Shown here one piece after another: positions 10,906 to 18,264 of a stretch of DNA of 64,000 bases. Each line of letters opens with the position of its first letter. Position 1 is the first letter of the stretch. Source of the stretch: Marinifilum sp. D714 (GTDB taxonomy: Bacteria; Bacteroidota; Bacteroidia; Bacteroidales; Marinifilaceae); the NCBI RefSeq assembly GCF_030851345.1, contig NZ_JALPNU010000001.1, positions 248,001-312,000 of the forward strand, in the 5' to 3' direction. Position numbers and translations under genes: made by a program. Below the pieces are notes generated by a model, which saw only the letters and a program-made list of their open reading frames with translations, did no database searches and was not told where the DNA came from.

Positions 10906-11730
10906 CTATCCCGGGAATTTAGGGAACTTCTGGAATTCAGGATCACGCTTTTCAAGGAATGCATTCTTTCCTTCCTGCGCTTCTTCCATTAGGTAATACA
11001 TCATGGTTGCATCACCTGCAAATTCCATCAAACCGCGCTGTCCGTCTAATTCTGCGTTCAATCCACGCTTAATCATACGAATTGCCATAGGGCTACGCAT
11101 CATGATGGTTTTACACCACTCTACAGTTTCGTCTTCCAATTTTTCCAATGGTACCACAGTGTTTACCATACCCATTTCTTCAGCTTCTTTGGCAGTGTAC
11201 TGCTTACAAAGGAACCAGATCTCACGAGCTTTCTTCTGGCCTACGTGGCGAGCCAAATAGTTCGAACCAAAACCAGCATCGAAACTACCCACTTTAGGAC
11301 CAGTCTGACCGAATTTTGCATTTTCAGAAGCGATGGTCAAGTCACAAACCACATGAAGTACGTGTCCGCCACCAATAGCATATCCGTTAACCATAGCAAT
11401 TACAGGCTTAGGCATAGAACGGATAGCCTTGTGCAAATCCAATACATTCAAACGAGGTACACCGTGTTCATCGATGTATCCACCAACGCCTTTTACATTC
11501 TGATCACCACCCGAACAGAAAGCCTTATCGCCAGTTCCAGTCAACACAATTACACCAATATCGCTACGCTCGCGGCAGATATCCATAGCATCCAACATAT
11601 CGAAGTTGGTTTGCGGACGGAATGCATTGTACACCTCAGGACGATTGATGGTGATTTTTGCAATTCCTTCGAAAAATTCGAATTTAATATCTTCGTATTC
11701 CTTAATGGTAGTCCAGTTTCTAGTTGTCAT
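10906..11730 (-). CDS. menB: 1,4-Dihydroxy-2-naphthoyl-CoA synthase
   Basis: A 274-residue crotonase-fold enzyme that closes o-succinylbenzoyl-CoA to DHNA-CoA. Signature parts: [11 protein letters not shown] (oxyanion hole and CoA site), [19 protein letters not shown], and [21 protein letters not shown] with the glycine of the bicarbonate-dependent (type I) MenB group after QT. The C-terminal [15 protein letters not shown] is diagnostic. The ATG overlaps the menD stop as ATGA, giving translational coupling. Length and all landmarks are normal. Confidence 0.97.
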
Positions 11731-13424
11731 ACCTTCTCTTTTATAGTTTTAAAATAATTTATTAGCACTTGATCGTTTATCGTTCTTGGCGTTTTAATCT
11801 CCAGAACGGCAGCTTTTTCGTTTGCTGCATAGAATTCAGGCAAAACGTTTTCTGCCTCTGTTTGATTTTCTGCGTAAAAATAATCCAATCCGTAGGTTTC
11901 TGCTAGCTTATCTGCACGGTATTCCTGTACCGTCTCAAAATATTCTTCCAACTCATCCACACCTGATGGACCAGATATGAATCGGAAAATTCCTCCTCCA
12001 CCATTGTTGATGAGAATGATTTTCAGATTTGGCTGCAGGTATTTGTTCCACAATCCATTTGAATCGTAGAAAAAACTGATGTCACCGGTAATCAGTGTTG
12101 TGATTTTGCCATTCACCATAGCAGACCCTGCTGCCGTTGATGTACAACCATCTATCCCACTGGTTCCTCGATTCGAGTTATAGCTTATTTGACCGGATGT
12201 TTTGAACAATTGCGCATATCTAACAACTGAACTGTTTGCCAGTTGTAGATTTCCTCCTTCCGGAATAGCTTGTAAAATCTTCTCGAAAGCCTTCATGTCA
12301 CTCCATTGCAGCTTATCCAGATAAGCCTCATGAATTTTGCCTACTATTGCATCCCTCTCTTTCCAGAGATTAGCATATCCACTTTGCGTATGATTCAATG
12401 CTGGTAATAATTGACGGAAAAAGGCCAGTGGAGACACATCAATGTGAGAAGTTAGGTTCTTGAAGGTATCAATAAAATGATCCTCTTTCCCCACAAACCA
12501 ATGCTCCTTTGGACGATAATCACGCAAGAAGGATTTGATCATTTTCGACACCAATGGTCCTCCAAAATTGATCAGCAAATCAGGTTGAAACTCCTTTTTC
12601 TCCTCCTCTTTCAGCGAGCAGATTACTCTGTCGATACAAGGCAAAAACTCTTCTCCATGCAAATTGGCAACCGATTCGGTCATTACCGCCACATTTGGTT
12701 TTTGGGCCAATTGTTTTAGCAATTCATTCAACTCTGGCTGCTGATGAAGCAGGCCTGCCAATATCAATATCTTTTTGTTCGAATTAAAAGCCTGAGCCAA
12801 GTCTTCAACACTTTCTTTGCTCAATTCATCAACCGAACTCACTTTACGGATTACCCTTTCATCTGAATCAGGATATTGTTTTACCCCATACAAAGGCTCG
12901 CGCAAAGGGAAATTGATATGAACCGGTCCAATCCGTCCGGTTTGTGCTTTTGTTAAGGCTTCGTTGGCCATTCTGTTCAGGTACCAGCAATCATCAGGAT
13001 TGTTGGCATCCAATGGCAATTGATAGCTTGCTTTCACAAAACCTTTGAAAACATCAGGCTGTGGAATGGCCTGGCTATCATCCTGCCCAATCCATTCGGT
13101 TGGACGATCGGCAGAAATCACCACCAAAGGCAAACGCTGGTAGTAAGCCTCGGCAACTGCAGGCCCGTAATTCAACAAGGCCGTTCCCGATGTACATACC
13201 AAGCCAACCGGCTTCCTGGTTTGTTGTGCAATCCCCAATGCAAAATAGGCGGCAGATCGCTCATCCACAATCACCAAACTTTTAATTCGCTGATCTTTCG
13301 CAAAAGAGATGCTAAGCGGAGCATTTCTGGAACCTGGCGAAACAATTGCATATTCCATTCCTTTGGCCCAACAGATATCAATCAGTTCTTTCACACCCTT
13401 GATATCCGAATAATTGCGCTCCAT
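11727..13424 (-). CDS. menD: SEPHCHC synthase (menaquinone MenD)
   Basis: A thiamine-diphosphate enzyme joining isochorismate and 2-oxoglutarate. From ATG 13424 ([18 protein letters not shown]) it is 565 residues, the usual size; the frame extends to a GTG at 13514 and another ATG at 13469, but that stretch includes a repeated AAGTACAAAGT spacer sequence and is unlikely to be coding. Landmarks: SPGSRNAPL, catalytic glutamate region [29 protein letters not shown], and the ThDP-Mg site [14 protein letters not shown] followed by NNGGGGIF. The stop overlaps menB. Part of the menI-menF-menD-menB run. Confidence 0.97.
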
Positions 13425-13565
13425 GTATTTTGTATTTTCTTTTATTCTTGTGGTACTTTCTGAATTCATTCGCTTTCTATTGACCTTATAGGTAAAATAC
13501 TTTGTACTTGACACTTTGTACTTTCTCCTTCTACCTTTCGCAACTCAAATTTAAAACAAATTCGC

Positions 13566-14669
13566 TTATTTAATCACTTTAAGCAAAGTTTGCGCTTTAA
13601 AACAGGTTTCCATCCATTCTTTTTCAGGATCAGAGTCAGCTGTTATTCCACCACCAACAAATAGTGCCATGCTTTCTGTAAGCACCTTCATACTTCTCAA
13701 ATTCACAAACAAAGCAAGACTCCCATCAGCATGAATGGGTCCTAAAAAGCCAGCATAATACTCTCTACTATGCTTCTCTACTTTTCGGATTAAATCCATA
13801 CCCTTTTTTTTAGGCAAACCGCAAACTGCAGGTGTAGGATGTAATGCTTGAACAAAACTAGAGATCTGATCGAAACTTAATGCAGTGTTTGCCTTATAGG
13901 TAGTTTTTAGATGAACAACATTACCCGCTTGTGCTGTAAAAGGACCTTGCTTTTGATAATTCTCAATCTGATAGGTAGAAAACAGTTCTTCGATATAATC
14001 ACTCACATAGGCTTGCTCCTCTATCTCTTTTTTCTCCCATTCAACAGATTGGACTGCTCTATCATCCAACTTCTGCGTTCCCGCTAAAGCTACCGTCTCA
14101 ATGGTTTTTCCATCAGAATTTAGAAATCTCTCCGGACTGGCACCTATCCACAATCCTACTCCTGGAATATCTACCATGGAAACAAAAGCATTGGGATAAG
14201 TTTCGTTCAATCGAAGAAAAATGGATGCTGCCTCTGTGCGTCCTTTCCCATTCAGCACATGTATTCTGGAAAGAATAACTTTATCAAGCTTTTTACTCTT
14301 TAAATCGGCAAGCATTTGATTGATTTGATCAAAATAATCCTCCATCGAACTTTCGTAAGCATCCAAATCCTCATCCATCTGATCAGGTAAACCTGAAAAA
14401 TCTACAAATTGTGTTGAATTTGAGCTAAACTCGAATTCTGGATCTATAAAGTAAGAAGCTTGTTTTCCATCCGCATCGAAAGGTGCCAACAAAAAACCGT
14501 CCTTTCCTTTCAAATCCAATAAATTGGTAAACTTAGATATACCTGTTTGAATTCCAATTTTGATTTCTTGATCTCCTGGCAAGGAATAAGCATAAAACGA
14601 AAGTCGTTTTTGTATGCACTGCTCTAGAAAATATTGTATTGATTTTTCTTTGTCCTCCAATTGACTCAT
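13566..14669 (-). CDS. menF: Isochorismate synthase
   Basis: A 367-residue chorismate-binding enzyme that converts chorismate to isochorismate, the first menaquinone step. The C-terminal catalytic part holds VALAGTQKLDDR, HLKTTYKANT, LHPTPAVCGLPKKKGMD, then EYYAGFLGPI and VGGGITADSDPEKEWMET, all typical of MenF/EntC/DhbC. The ATG begins three bases after the MenI-like gene stop, so the genes are tightly linked. Position next to menD separates it from siderophore or salicylate roles. Confidence 0.96.
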   Translation of the reverse strand: MSQLEDKEKSIQYFLEQCIQKRLSFYAYSLPGDQEIKIGIQTGISKFTNLLDLKGKDGFLLAPFDADGKQASYFIDPEFEFSSNSTQFVDFSGLPDQMDEDLDAYESSMEDYFDQINQMLADLKSKKLDKVILSRIHVLNGKGRTEAASIFLRLNETYPNAFVSMVDIPGVGLWIGASPERFLNSDGKTIETVALAGTQKLDDRAVQSVEWEKKEIEEQAYVSDYIEELFSTYQIENYQKQGPFTAQAGNVVHLKTTYKANTALSFDQISSFVQALHPTPAVCGLPKKKGMDLIRKVEKHSREYYAGFLGPIHADGSLALFVNLRSMKVLTESMALFVGGGITADSDPEKEWMETCFKAQTLLKVIK

Positions 14670-14672
14670 TTT

Positions 14673-15089
14673 CTACTTTTTAATGATCACATTGGTAATT
14701 CGGCAAATCGACACCAATTTTTCCTTCTCATTCAATACGTTTACTTCAACAATATGAGTCATTTTTCCTTTATGAACAAACTTGGCCTTGGCAGTAATTT
14801 TTCCTTTTCGTAGACTTCTGATATGATTGGCATTAATCTCCATACCTTTCACATCGTAGTTTTTTAAATCAGTATGAATTACAGAAAGTGCACTTCCTAC
14901 GGACTCCGCTAATGCCAGAGTAGCTCCTCCATGTAATATCTTCATAGGTTGCCAATGATTTGAAGTTACCTCCATTTCAGCCACCAAATAATCTTCACCT
15001 ACTTCTGTATATGTAATGCCTAAATGCTCCATTAAAGTTTCGGAGCACATCTTATTTAAAGATTCTAATGCCTCAGTATTTTTAATCAT
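14673..15089 (-). CDS. menI: Hotdog thioesterase, probable DHNA-CoA hydrolase
   Basis: A 138-residue hotdog-fold thioesterase of the PaaI/YdiI type. The motif LHGGATLALAESVGS (residues 52-66) carries the histidine and glutamate (E62) that match the catalytic region of YdiI/MenI, the enzyme that frees DHNA from DHNA-CoA. A lone PaaI homologue could have another acyl-CoA target, but it is the first gene of the menF-menD-menB run, with a three-base gap to menF, so MenI is the best reading. Confidence 0.85.
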   Translation of the reverse strand: MIKNTEALESLNKMCSETLMEHLGITYTEVGEDYLVAEMEVTSNHWQPMKILHGGATLALAESVGSALSVIHTDLKNYDVKGMEINANHIRSLRKGKITAKAKFVHKGKMTHIVEVNVLNEKEKLVSICRITNVIIKK

Positions 15090-15140
15090 TCTACAAAAAT
15101 AATGTTTTCGTTAAGATTACATTCATTACTTACCTATAGA

Positions 15141-15166
15141 GCCAAAAAAAGCTCAATTGAATTGAG
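15141..15166 (-). terminator. Intrinsic terminator after the fourth cold-shock gene
   Basis: AAAGCTCAATT and AATTGAGCTTT form an almost perfect palindrome (15146-15166); on the minus strand it is followed by a T run. It lies 32 bases beyond the stop of the 15199-15390 gene and just ahead of the menI start. Confidence 0.85.
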
Positions 15167-15198
15167 CTTTACCTTTAGGAAAAATATCTTAATACAAA

Positions 15199-15390
15199 TT
15201 AGTCAATTTTTACATTAACTGCATTTAATCCTTTTTTTCCTTCTACAACATCGTAAGTTACGTTATCACCTTGGTCGATTTTGTCGATCAAACCTGTAAC
15301 ATGAACAAAAATGTCTTCTTGTGTTTCACTGTTTTTAATAAAACCAAAACCTTTAGTTTCATTAAAGAATTTTACTGTACCTGTAGGCAT
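15199..15390 (-). CDS. Cold-shock domain protein, dispersed copy
   Basis: A 63-residue cold-shock domain: MPTGTVKFFNETKGFGFI holds RNP1, and DIFVHVTG holds RNP2. It is clearly distinct from the triplet near 8 kb (MPTG start, KNSETQED loop, VDEGDN-like segment replaced by IDQGDNVTYDVV), so it is an independent paralogue. It is monocistronic, with its own terminator, and divergent from the asnA leader. Confidence 0.95.
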   Translation of the reverse strand: MPTGTVKFFNETKGFGFIKNSETQEDIFVHVTGLIDKIDQGDNVTYDVVEGKKGLNAVNVKID

Positions 15391-15595
15391 TACTTAAAAA
15401 ATTTAAAATTATTACGTAGTAAATGTACGTAATTTGATTTAATAACTAAACAATTATCTGATTATTTTCAATTTTCTTGACAAAGAATTAGCATTAAGCA
15501 TACAACACCTGATATTCAGAATGATATTTAATGAGATTCTTAAATTAAACATACCAAGTTGATGAACAGAAAAATAAAACCTGTAAAAAATGACT

Positions 15596-15626
15596 TTTGG
15601 TAGTTTAAATATTAATCCTACATTTG
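15596..15626 (+). promoter_or_regulatory. Predicted asnA promoter (Bacteroidota -33/-7 type)
   Basis: TTTG at 15596-15599 and TACATTTG at 15619-15626 match the TTTG and TAnnTTTG elements of the primary sigma factor of Bacteroidota, with the expected spacing of 19 bases. Transcription would begin near 15633, about 14 bases before the first leader peptide. Confidence 0.75.
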
Positions 15627-15646
15627 TAAGCAAGAAAGACAAAGAA

Positions 15647-15721
15647 ATGAGACAATTCAACAACAATAATAACCTTTTTAATAATTCGATGAATAATTCA
15701 TCGAAAATGGGAAGGCTATAG
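15647..15721 (+). CDS. Asparagine-rich leader peptide 1 of asnA
   Basis: A 24-codon reading frame: ATG, then MRQFNNNNNLF, NNSMNNSS, KMGRL, stop TAG at 719-721 of the 15 kb block. Nine of 24 codons are Asn (AAC and AAT), in clusters of five, two and two. Purine-rich AGAAAGACAAAGAA precedes the ATG. It starts about 14 bases after the predicted transcription start and is followed 25 bases after its stop by a strong terminator, the arrangement of amino-acid leader peptides such as trpL or hisL. The last codons (GGAAGGCT, within 15709-15717) are a copy of the terminator's 3' arm. Confidence 0.9.
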   Translation: MRQFNNNNNLFNNSMNNSSKMGRL

Positions 15722-15774
15722 TTGTTATCGAAAAAATATTTACATGAGCCTTCCCAAATTGGGAAGGCTTTTTT
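15709..15774 (+). promoter_or_regulatory. Attenuator 1: antiterminator arm plus terminator
   Basis: Segment A GGGAAGGCT (15709-15717) overlaps the end of leader peptide 1. Segment B AGCCTTCCC (15747-15755) and segment C GGGAAGGCT (15761-15769) form a 9-bp terminator stem with a 5-base loop and a T run to 15774. A and C are identical, so B can pair with either. A ribosome that reaches the stop codon masks A and lets B:C terminate; a ribosome stalled on the Asn codons upstream leaves A free to pair with B and allow readthrough. Confidence 0.88.
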
Positions 15775-15785
15775 ATTTACAACAA

Positions 15786-15839
15786 ATGGTACAATTTTTC
15801 AACAATAATAATAACAATAATAATTCTCCCCCAGGGTGA
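15786..15839 (+). CDS. Asparagine-rich leader peptide 2 of asnA
   Basis: A 17-codon frame beginning only 12 bases after the T run of terminator 1: MVQFF, eight consecutive Asn codons (15801-15824, AAC and AAT), SPPG, stop TGA at 15837-15839. Both leaders share the start pattern M-x-Q-F followed by poly-Asn, suggesting that the second arose by duplication of the first. Its end overlaps the antiterminator segment of attenuator 2. Function is inferred from layout: sensing charged Asn-tRNA a second time. Confidence 0.9.
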   Translation: MVQFFNNNNNNNNSPPG

Positions 15840-15899
15840 GGAAGTAGCATTGTTATATCATATTACAAGCCTTTCTCACCACTGAGAAAGGCTTTTTTT
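15834..15899 (+). promoter_or_regulatory. Attenuator 2: antiterminator arm plus terminator
   Basis: Terminator: AGCCTTTCTCA (15868-15878) and TGAGAAAGGCT (15883-15893), a perfect 11-bp stem with loop CCAC, then seven T. The competing segment GGTGAGGAAG (15835-15844) spans the leader 2 stop codon and pairs with CTTTCTCACC (15871-15880) through ten base pairs including one G-U; GC at 15847-15848 can extend it past a two-base bulge. Completion of leader 2 would cover this segment; stalling on Asn codons would free it. Only 36 bases separate the T run from the asnA ATG. Confidence 0.87.
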
Positions 15900-15935
15900 A
15901 TCAATTTATTTCTATTAATTAAAATTTTAAAAATC

Positions 15936-16973
15936 ATGAAAAACTTAATTATTCCTAAGGCTTACAAAAGCATCTTATGTCCTGATGCAACTGAAAAAGC
16001 AATTAAATTTATTAAGGATCAGTTTCAACTTCAACTCTCTTCGGAACTAAAACTTCGCAGAGTAACTGCACCTATGATTGTATTGAAAGGTACTGGTTTG
16101 AACGATGATTTGAATGGTATTGAGCGCCCCGTAGCATTTCCAATTAAAGGATTGGGAGAACAAACTGCAGAAGTTGTCCACTCATTGGCAAAATGGAAAA
16201 GATACATGCTTGGTGAACTTCAAATTCCGGTTGGCAAAGGTCTTTATACCGATATGAATGCTCTTCGTCCTGACGAAGATTTTACCAACCTTCACTCCAT
16301 TTATGTAGATCAGTGGGATTGGGAAAAATCAATCAGCAAAGAAGAACGAAGCATTGATTTTCTAGTAAGAACCGTAAAACAAGTTTATGCATCCATTAAA
16401 AGAACGGAGTACATTTTAAGTGAATATTACCCGGCTTTAAGTCCACAATTGCCTGAAGAAATTACTTTTATTCACTCTGAGGAATTATTGGAAAAGTTTC
16501 CTGATTTATCATCAAAAGAAAGAGAAACTGAAGCTGTAAAAGAGTTTGGAGCAGTCTTTATTATTGGTATTGGAGGTGAATTAAAAAACGGAGAACCACA
16601 CGATGGCCGTGCTCCTGACTACGATGATTGGACTACTCCTTCGGTTAACGGATACAAAGGTTTAAACGGCGATATTATTCTTTGGAACCCTGTTATTGAA
16701 CAAGCTTTCGAGATATCATCAATGGGAATTCGTGTAGACGAAAAAGCATTGTTGGAGCAACTTGAGATTAGGGGAGAAGAAAAGCGAAAAGAACTAATGT
16801 TTCACAAAAAATTATTGTCAGGAGAATTACCTTACTCTGTTGGAGGAGGAATTGGGCAATCAAGGTTGTGCATGTTTTTACTTCGTAAAGCTCATATTGG
16901 AGAAGTTCAATCAAGTATCTGGCCAGATGAACTGAGAGATACTTGTAAAAAAGCAGGAATTATATTCTTGTAA
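15936..16973 (+). CDS. asnA: Aspartate-ammonia ligase (asparagine synthetase A)
   Basis: A 345-residue class II aminoacyl-tRNA-synthetase-like enzyme that makes asparagine from aspartate, ammonia and ATP. Diagnostic stretches: QLQLSSELKLRRVTAPM, GIERPVAFPIKG, HSLAKWKRYMLGELQIP, GLYTDMNALRPDE, HSIYVDQWDWEK, NGEPHDGRAPDYDDW, and the C-terminal GGGIGQSRLCMFLLRKAHIGEVQ. Length is normal (E. coli AsnA is 330). It has its own promoter and two leader-peptide attenuators upstream, so it should be expressed mainly when Asn-tRNA charging is low. Confidence 0.98.
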   Translation: MKNLIIPKAYKSILCPDATEKAIKFIKDQFQLQLSSELKLRRVTAPMIVLKGTGLNDDLNGIERPVAFPIKGLGEQTAEVVHSLAKWKRYMLGELQIPVGKGLYTDMNALRPDEDFTNLHSIYVDQWDWEKSISKEERSIDFLVRTVKQVYASIKRTEYILSEYYPALSPQLPEEITFIHSEELLEKFPDLSSKERETEAVKEFGAVFIIGIGGELKNGEPHDGRAPDYDDWTTPSVNGYKGLNGDIILWNPVIEQAFEISSMGIRVDEKALLEQLEIRGEEKRKELMFHKKLLSGELPYSVGGGIGQSRLCMFLLRKAHIGEVQSSIWPDELRDTCKKAGIIFL

Positions 16974-16989: not shown

Positions 16990-17020
16990 CAAAAAAAGAG
17001 GCTGTCCAACTGACAGCCTC
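16990..17020 (-). terminator. Intrinsic terminator of the subtilase gene
   Basis: GAGGCTGTC and GACAGCCTC form a perfect 9-bp stem (16998-17020) with loop CAACT. The T run lies on the minus-strand side, so it mainly ends the subtilase transcript, with partial use for convergent asnA possible. Confidence 0.85.
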
Positions 17021-17040: not shown

Positions 17041-18264
17041 CTATCTGTGGGCAATAGGATCTGCATCACCGTCAGGATCATTATTCACATATCCATCGGT
17101 ATGGATAGGACCCAATAACAATAAACCACAAACATGAGGCGCAGCCATTGAAGTTCCACTCATAGTACCATATCCTCCATCCAAATAGCATGACTTAATA
17201 TTTACGCCAGGAGCACAAACATCAACAGGTGTTCCATAATTTGAGAATGAAGCAAAATTATCATTGATATCAGAAGCTGATACAGTATAAACATTTGGAT
17301 GATTAGCTCTAGCTGGAGAATAATATAAAGCATCATCAGATGAGTTACCTGCAGCAATTGAAATCAAAATTCCCAAATCAGCAACAGACTTTACAGTCTC
17401 ATCGTAAGCATCGTAAGTATAACGAGATTTTGGTCCTAAACTCATATTAACAGCATCGCCAGGCTGACCTTCAGCAGCAATATAATCCAATGCAGCCATT
17501 GACCAAGACATATTACCATTACCTCTTCTGTCAAGAACACGACAAGAAACAACTTTAGCATTAGGAGCAACTCCAACTACACCTATAGAATTATTCAAAG
17601 CAGCAACTGTACCTGCTACGTGTGTACCATGTCCATGCTGATCATCTGGAGTAGTTTTACCTTGAGTAATGAAAGTCTTACTTCTTGCAACATCAACGTT
17701 CAAGTCTGGGTGATCCATATCAATACCAGAATCAATAATCCAAGCAGTTTTTCCAGTACCATCGCCAGCACCGCCCACACGTGTAATTCCCCAAGGGGTT
17801 TCTTGTGCAGGTTGTGTACTTCCACCTCCTGGTTTTCCCAATGAGATCTGAATATCCTTCTCAACACGCTTTACTCTTGGATCAAGTAATAATTTTGCTA
17901 CCTGATTTTCATTTAGCTTTACTGAGAAACCTTGGATTGCAGTACTGTAAGTATGTTCAACATTTTCTTCTGAGATTCCATTACCTTTAAGGAATTTAGC
18001 TACATGAGACTTCATACGAATCGCTTTCTTTTCGTAGCCTTTTAATCCTTTTAATTCGCTCTTCAAAACAACATCATCATTAAACTGAACAACATAGGTG
18101 CTTTTACCACCTTTAACGTCAGAAAAATCTGATTTTACCATTGAAGTTACCTCAGGGGATTCATTTAACATTTCATCCTCTAGGGAATTGTCACAGGATG
18201 TTACTACAGCACCCATTAGTGCTAACAAAAGCATGGCTTTCATAGAATTAAAAAAAATCTTCAT
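17041..18264 (-). CDS. Secreted subtilisin-like serine protease (S8), lipoprotein
   Basis: A 407-residue protease. Residues 1-24 form a lipoprotein signal (LMGAVVTSC, Cys24). An inhibitor I9-like propeptide follows (TYVVQFND at 57-64 to VKRVEKDIQI near 140). The catalytic domain begins near PWGITRVGG; the triad is Asp178 (AWIIDSGID), His212 (HGHGTHVAG) and Ser372 (SGTSMAAPH), with oxyanion Asn307 (AAGNSS). Architecture resembles the thermitase/proteinase K group. The propeptide implies autocatalytic maturation, which would release the enzyme from its lipid anchor. The protein ends soon after the serine, without a beta-sandwich or sorting domain. Confidence 0.93.
   Translation of the reverse strand: MKIFFNSMKAMLLLALMGAVVTSCDNSLEDEMLNESPEVTSMVKSDFSDVKGGKSTYVVQFNDDVVLKSELKGLKGYEKKAIRMKSHVAKFLKGNGISEENVEHTYSTAIQGFSVKLNENQVAKLLLDPRVKRVEKDIQISLGKPGGGSTQPAQETPWGITRVGGAGDGTGKTAWIIDSGIDMDHPDLNVDVARSKTFITQGKTTPDDQHGHGTHVAGTVAALNNSIGVVGVAPNAKVVSCRVLDRRGNGNMSWSMAALDYIAAEGQPGDAVNMSLGPKSRYTYDAYDETVKSVADLGILISIAAGNSSDDALYYSPARANHPNVYTVSASDINDNFASFSNYGTPVDVCAPGVNIKSCYLDGGYGTMSGTSMAAPHVCGLLLLGPIHTDGYVNNDPDGDADPIAHR

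Follow-up and report, generated by a model that had tools for sequence, protein, structure and literature searches.

Among the closest described systems are the trpL and hisL attenuators of Proteobacteria, described in PMC1183508, in which a short leader open reading frame (ORF) is rich in codons for the product amino acid, antiterminator and terminator overlap, and the stop codon lets the ribosome block strand 2. In Salmonella mgtCBR, two short leader ORFs on one transcript act on downstream transcription in response to ATP and proline (PMC3641672), and in the T-box, low tRNA charging leads to readthrough of an intrinsic terminator. Leader-peptide attenuation in Bacteroidota is only hinted at in the literature we searched: 'strong clues' of it have been described at amino acid biosynthesis operons of Flavobacterium psychrophilum, a member of the same phylum whose structured 5' elements include pheA and hisG (PMC9723704), and leader-like short ORFs have been noted in Bacteroides thetaiotaomicron (PMC7366714). 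A 2010 survey of premature terminators assigned leader peptides mainly to Proteobacteria and Actinobacteria, with Firmicutes also named (PMC2965389), while a 2008 survey of T-boxes found none in seven Bacteroidetes/Chlorobi genomes (PMC2494555). The control region of asnA in Marinifilum sp. D714 shares the listed features of trpL and hisL and, like mgtCBR, has two short leader ORFs on one transcript; as in the T-box, low tRNA charging would lead to readthrough of intrinsic terminators. We consider it very likely that two ribosome-mediated transcription attenuators, placed one after the other and each responding to charged tRNA-Asn, govern this gene, although the regulation is inferred and there are no expression data.

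The region lies in a 64,000-nt stretch of the Marinifilum sp. D714 genome, hereafter the window, to which all coordinates refer. A preliminary description had claimed a promoter and two Asn-rich leaders, each with a terminator, upstream of asnA, and this held, every element being confirmed in the sequence; the parts and their order are shown directly (Table 1). The TTTG/TACATTTG motif, which we take to be the promoter motif of the phylum, recurs with an identical TACATTTG box at a similar distance in all five loci of genus g1 and in loci L008 and L009, and most other tandem loci of family f1 carry box variants of the TA(C/G)TTTAG type. A terminator scan of positions 15400-16200 returned four sites against 0.2 expected in shuffles, the longest two stems being terminators 1 and 2, both on the plus strand, and the 316-nt leader RNA gave a folding z of -5.8 relative to shuffles. 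Leader 2 starts 15 nt past the stem of terminator 1 and is the single place in the 4.77 Mb genome with at least six consecutive Asn codons (three overlapping matches). An Rfam search of 15000-16500 for a known riboswitch, T-box or leader family listed 17 matches with E values up to 5, all below gathering score; no T-box family was among them, so the specifier loop and T-box sequence that would mark a T-box were not seen there. The minus-strand genes of 11727-15390 lie upstream of the control region. On the other side, an inverted repeat at 16998-17020, common to asnA and the convergent subtilisin-like gene, looks like a two-way terminator.

Table 1. Features of the asnA locus and its neighbourhood (coordinates in the window)
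Feature	Coordinates	Strand	Remarks
menD-like and isochorismate-synthase-like genes	within 11727-15390	minus	named from translation
4HBT thioesterase and cold-shock protein genes	within 11727-15390	minus	Pfam
Promoter, Bacteroidota-type	15596..15626	plus	TTTG (-33 box) and TACATTTG (-7 box), from sequence
Leader peptide 1	15647 (ATG)..15721 (stop)	plus	MRQFNNNNNLFNNSMNNSSKMGRL, 24 codons, 9 Asn
Strand 2 of module 1 (5' arm, antiterminator 1)	15708..15717	plus	within the last codons of leader 1
Intrinsic terminator 1	15746..15776	plus	11-bp stem 15746-15770, then U tract; -17.9 kcal/mol
Leader peptide 2	15786..15839	plus	MVQFFNNNNNNNNSPPG, 17 codons, 8 consecutive Asn
Pro-Pro codons of leader 2	15828..15833	plus	one codon past the Asn run
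Strand 2 of module 2 (5' arm, antiterminator 2)	15835..15844	plus	overlaps the leader 2 stop codon, 15837-15839
Intrinsic terminator 2	15867..15900	plus	12-bp stem 15867-15894, then U tract; -16.8 kcal/mol
asnA, aspartate-ammonia ligase, 345 aa	15936..16973	plus	Pfam PF03590 (AsnA), 341.9 bits, E 2.6e-102
Subtilisin-like gene	17041-18264	minus	named from translation

The arrangement is conserved. An AsnA search of 56 genomes of the family returned 28 full matches and one fragment, and both leaders were present in 21 of the 28 full loci, namely all 21 from genera g1, g6, g8, g9, g12 and g17, whose AsnA proteins are 78-100% identical; one leader was found in five loci (genera g3 and g13) and none in two (genus g7). 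The preliminary description had named absence of both leaders from close relatives as a finding that would refute it, and the outcome was the opposite, with both present in 21/21 loci of the six nearest asnA-bearing genera. The search was widened to samples of the order (393 genomes, 158 with a match), the class (395, 23 with a match) and the phylum (395, 21 with a match), with additional loci from genome contigs (80) and viral contigs (9). Not all AsnA matches were examined; 80 more upstream stretches of the order were taken by hand and 28 genomes were re-queried. A uniform count started from 323 loci in which AsnA was recognised or for which upstream sequence had been fetched. Four loci lacking the AsnA motif used (L029, L176, L313 and L314, of which L313 is tandem by eye) stayed outside it, four with less than 200 nt upstream (L062, L086, L296 and L310) were dropped, and removal of duplicates left 281 asnA upstream regions. 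Two Asn-leader-plus-terminator modules were found in 30 of these, one in 26 and none in 225; the structural and comparative predictions open to checking here were borne out. L204, counted as one module, looks like a false positive and was not treated as a leader in the tree or the folding scan described below; L298 is weak; and L010, L160, L299 and L309 were scored as one-module loci with a second leader visible by eye.

A composition artefact was ruled out by shuffles, the reverse strand, downstream regions and other residues. At least one module occurred in 56/281 upstream regions versus 1/281 on the reverse strand, 0/281 dinucleotide shuffles and 0/202 downstream regions. When 17 residues were each put through the same test with ATG starts only, Asn scored in 55 of the 281 regions, Leu in 12, Ser in 5, Lys in 3 and Ile in 1, and all others in no more than two. 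Across the leaders, both Asn codons are used (519 AAT and 135 AAC).

Tandem copies were recorded in ten family codes of the class, one of them by eye. The automatic scan found two modules in f1, f25, f39, f63, f90, f100 and f117 of the order of the window's genome, as well as in two family codes from other orders of the class, f191 and f202; f81 was added by eye. Single modules occur in f6, f9, f27 (weak), f33, f83, f129 and f174, and in another class of the phylum in f154 (L203). The asnA gene of L203, in a locus of 63% GC over 4 kb, is preceded by a leader of 48 codons, 10 of them Asn, and by a terminator; an independent origin of this leader is possible. None of the 89 loci from genome contigs and viral contigs, many of them named as gut or rumen Bacteroidales, yielded a module (L062 and L086 have less than 100 nt upstream); from names such as Prevotellaceae, Rikenellaceae and Bacteroidales among the rows marked as the same order, we infer that the order is Bacteroidales. 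For an AsnA tree, full-length proteins were available from 34 tandem, 21 single and 162 leaderless loci, with L010, L160, L299 and L309 set to tandem by eye; nine near-copies were dropped and 44 of the leaderless proteins sampled, giving 90 rows, and the tree was built by a quick method with SH-aLRT support only. Leader presence or absence required six changes on this tree, against a shuffled mean of 30 for the leaderless group, and none of 500 shuffles was as low. The tree cannot separate gain of leaders from loss.

Several variant loci were seen along the way. In the scanned stretch, the g3 and g13 loci (L023, L024, L025, L156 and L157) have a leader-1-type module alone, while those of family f33 (L297, L301, L302, L303 and L304) have a single leader-2-like element, in which the Asn run is followed by Cys or Ser and then Pro-Pro, and one terminator. 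In L010 (genome G015), about 160 to 50 nt upstream of asnA, terminator 2 has decayed to a stem of -5.7 kcal/mol and leader 2 looks eroded, with an interrupted Asn run, possibly a loss in progress. In family f25, L161 and, by eye, L160 lack a leader 2 stop codon ahead of the terminator, and the stop of L159 lies directly past the 5' arm of the terminator, so that the ribosome would run into the hairpin.

The comparison also bears on whether the two modules lie in one path. In the 30 two-module loci, only 13-26 nt separate the stem end of terminator 1 from leader 2, leaving little room for a second promoter, so that leader 2 would be reached mainly by readthrough of terminator 1. Parallel control through a second promoter in this gap was considered and set aside on the same grounds, no consistent motif being seen in it.

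In both modules of the window, the pairings of antiterminator and terminator are mutually exclusive, and their predicted energies are balanced. Strand 2 of module 1 pairs with 15747-15756 (z -5.0) at -17.9 kcal/mol, equal to terminator 1, and strand 2 of module 2 pairs with 15871-15880 (z -3.8) at -16.8 kcal/mol, equal to terminator 2. In a ribosome-position scan, a ribosome was put on each leader codon successively and the downstream RNA alone was allowed to fold, the readout being whether the 5' arm of the terminator is captured by the antiterminator before its 3' arm is made. Everything from 13 nt past the first base of the A-site codon onwards was treated as free, an assumed footprint; the folds are equilibrium predictions, and a stop codon lying within the terminator arm or past it received a score of 0. 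For module 1 of the window, the predicted antiterminator probability was 0.98 whichever Asn codon the ribosome occupied, against 0.03 at the stop codon; for module 2 the corresponding values were 0.99 and 0.00. The mean was 0.91 at Asn codons and 0.07 at the stop in 28 leader-1-type modules, and 0.86 and 0.10 both in 22 leader 2 modules and over all 85 modules of the automatic scan (without L204). The probability fell a median of 2.5 codons past the last Asn (84 modules). Folding criteria of more than 0.5 at Asn and less than 0.3 at the stop were passed by 74 of the 85 modules, including both in the window. The other 11 failed: module 2 of L294 formed no clear antiterminator, module 2 of L288 was low at Asn, and values above 0.3 at the stop were obtained for L203, L012 module 2, L155 module 2, L023, L157, L284, L303, L305 and L306. 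With the ribosome absent, the antiterminator was favoured in most modules (means of 0.72 for leader-1-type and 0.75 for leader 2) and was low only in some, such as module 1 of L013, L154 and L159. This points to the lack of a strong trp-like protector hairpin, and termination would require a translating ribosome.

The two strands that must pair for antitermination have changed together. In a swap test of 47 of the 85 modules, picked as family representatives, strand 2 paired with its own terminator arm at a mean of -11.8 kcal/mol versus -8.0 for between-family swaps, and the median fraction of such swaps pairing at least equally well was 0.13. Within 16 two-module loci, own pairs averaged -11.4 kcal/mol versus -7.4 for cross pairs, that is, leader 1 with terminator 2 and leader 2 with terminator 1 of the same locus. 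Family f83 (L305 and L306) has a quite different terminator stem sequence, and its strand 2 is altered to match. No advantage of the own arm over foreign arms was seen on average for both modules of L012, module 2 of L294 and module 2 of L316. Co-change of strand 2 and arm is shown by sequence and computation, together with conservation, exclusive pairings of equal predicted stability and fitting codon positions.

The two leaders fall into distinct classes. Core Asn fractions in the 30 two-module loci were 0.56 in first leaders, whose Asn codons form interrupted clusters, and 0.84 in second leaders, whose run is nearly unbroken. Pro occurred no more than four codons past the last Asn in 29/30 second leaders (L153 being the exception) versus 0/30 first leaders; these loci are related, 18 of them belonging to family f1. 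With the five single f33 modules included, leader-2-type elements had Pro in 34 of 35 and Pro-Pro in 21, a count that is circular in part, the f33 modules having been assigned to this type by the same Asn-Pro signature; only 4 of 50 leader-1-type modules had Pro past the Asn run. Relative to the stop codon, strand 2 spans a median of -13 to -2.5 nt in the 50 leader-1-type modules, where it is internal to the ORF, and a median of 0 to +10 in the 35 leader-2-type modules, where it begins at the stop codon itself. A role of the Pro codons as an RNA pairing element is disfavoured by the predicted folds, which leave most of their CC positions unpaired (the mean for 34 leaders is 0.25), with the exceptions of four g12 loci (0.84-0.97) and L301 (0.93). 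We prefer, without proof, to infer a role at the level of the peptide.

A broader regulon, in which elements like leader 2 would precede genes other than asnA, was unsupported by a scan for N4-x-PP, which hit 30 places in 218 genomes of the order, with nine places for a reversed-pattern control. Nine of the 30, in eight genomes, are asnA leaders, and the other 21 comprise 14 within long ORFs and seven short frames. The seven are not leader-like: all lie opposite an open frame of 67 to 703 codons, five lack a start codon and six lack a terminator, L328 having a weak hairpin only. The scan does not exclude leader-1-type elements elsewhere. In the Marinifilum sp. D714 genome itself, an AsnB-like gene of 562 codons with an asparagine synthase domain (L362, on contig C94 of G000) has no Asn leader in the 500 nt upstream.

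These results fit a model in which asparagine supply would set the outcome of each module in turn. When Asn is scarce, a ribosome would stall in the Asn codons of leader 1. The sequence GGGAAGGCT, at the end of the leader 1 ORF, would then stay available for pairing with the 5' arm of terminator 1, and with GGGAAGGCT so paired, RNA polymerase would read on. A ribosome that reaches the leader stop codon would instead cover strand 2, and the terminator would form. Polymerase that has passed terminator 1 would meet an equal contest in module 2, with eight consecutive Asn codons and terminator 2, and the cell would in this way check its asparagine supply twice before making the enzyme. Translation of the leaders, Asn-tRNA as the signal and multiplication of the two checks are all inferred. 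Asn is a common residue, and in a published model sensitivity is higher for control codons that are rare in bulk mRNA (PMC1183508). Since Asn is common, a single attenuator may be too blunt, and two in series would, on this inference, square the fold-change.

Three other explanations were weighed. The one that survives best, though we think it unlikely, is that the modules answer different ranges or signals, leader 1 being graded and leader 2 also reporting proline or the speed of termination. The two leader classes are indeed separately conserved, as the core Asn fractions of the 30 loci show, and tandem attenuators with two signals are known from mgtCBR. Against this, Asn codons dominate both leaders, and Pro follows the Asn run, where a stall at Pro in leader 2 of the window is predicted to give an antiterminator probability that is intermediate (first Pro, 0.46) or low (second Pro, 0.12). 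A distinct second signal is nevertheless not excluded by sequence. A second explanation, that one module alone senses Asn and the other is either a leftover or a terminator that acts constitutively and is kept for some other purpose, for example to lower basal asnA transcription, we regard as very unlikely. It is favoured by the lineages in which one module suffices (leader-1-type in g3 and g13, leader-2-like in f33) and by the decayed terminator 2 of L010; it is opposed by the balanced energies and rightly placed Asn codons of both window modules and by the presence of both leaders in every one of the 21 loci from the six genera and across ten family codes. The weakest, that the Asn tracts are merely AAU/AAC spacer in AT-rich DNA, with the terminators under the control of a protein or small molecule, has in its favour an AT-rich region, the A-rich Asn triplets and weak sub-threshold Rfam matches to Phe_leader (E 0.0073) and PyrR (E 0.047), but is all but excluded by the failure of all 17 Rfam matches to reach gathering score, the empty dinucleotide shuffles, the lack of enrichment of Lys and Ile short ORFs relative to Asn, the Asn-rich leader of GC-rich L203 (though its stop-codon fold fails) and a switch point close behind the last Asn codon in most modules.

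The preferred reading thus remains that of two attenuators in series sensing Asn-tRNA. This had been proposed in the preliminary description; it is supported by structure and comparison and is very probably right, with the regulation itself inferred. The sharper, multiplicative repression also proposed there for plentiful Asn remains an inference, as do Asn-dependent readthrough and leader translation. The further claim that asparagine attenuation and tandem leaders of this kind are undescribed agrees with the open-licence literature searched, most subscription papers lying outside it: we found there no report of Asn leader-peptide attenuation or of same-signal tandem leaders, and no paper joining asnA, a leader peptide and an attenuator. 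The word stem 'asparag' is absent from the main text of PMC9723704, and the section of that paper that names pheA and hisG mentions no tandem arrangement.

A bolder reading concerns the division of work between the leaders. Within serial attenuation by Asn-tRNA, the two leaders would be specialised, separately conserved parts: leader 1 with interrupted Asn codons, its own last codons serving as the antiterminator strand, and leader 2 with a near-unbroken Asn run, Pro or Pro-Pro near the stop, and an antiterminator strand beginning at the stop. Pro would act as a brake, slow peptide release parking the terminating ribosome on strand 2 until the terminator forms, and the brake would reduce the background readthrough to which ribosome release leads in attenuators of the trp type. 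C-terminal Pro reportedly stalls termination in E. coli and slows peptide release in vitro (both cited in PMC7246954), and in the attenuation model of Elf and Ehrenberg termination can be aborted when the ribosome quits the stop codon with the terminator not yet formed (PMC1183508). By inference, Pro in leader 2 would delay the ribosome at the stop and so may hold it over strand 2; such a hold fits the prediction that the antiterminator wins in leader 2 modules without a ribosome. Taken jointly, divided work and a Pro brake remain a tentative proposal, and we would put the balance slightly against it. If true, a termination brake together with a serial same-amino-acid pair would be a new attenuator design, in which the serial pair makes up for the low sensitivity to be expected with an amino acid as common as Asn.

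By the sequence features tested, the asnA system very likely belongs to the ribosome-mediated attenuators, its regulation not having been shown, and what is new is the amino acid, the gene, the spread over a class and the same-signal tandem. If the model is right, asparagine joins the amino acids controlled by leader-peptide attenuation, asnA gains a control route in a phylum for which the 2008 survey found no T-boxes, and the locus offers a conserved example from nature of two serial attenuators that share one signal. It would make testable a modelling question, namely how attenuators gain a high dynamic range when the control codon is common and the ribosome may quit the stop codon early, and it provides a signature (Asn run, Pro, stop, terminator) by which genes regulated by asparagine could be sought. 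Whereas the T-box RNA binds tRNA directly and has no leader peptide, asnA has a leader peptide in each module. In mgtCBR the two signals differ and the stem-loops do not resemble intrinsic terminators, while the two asnA leaders share one amino acid and are each followed by a separate intrinsic terminator. Compared with trpL and hisL, the product of asnA is Asn and two full units stand in series for one amino acid; strand 2 is either part of the ORF (leader-1-type modules) or starts at the stop codon (leader-2-type modules); and, unlike in trp, no strong 1:2 protector hairpin is predicted.
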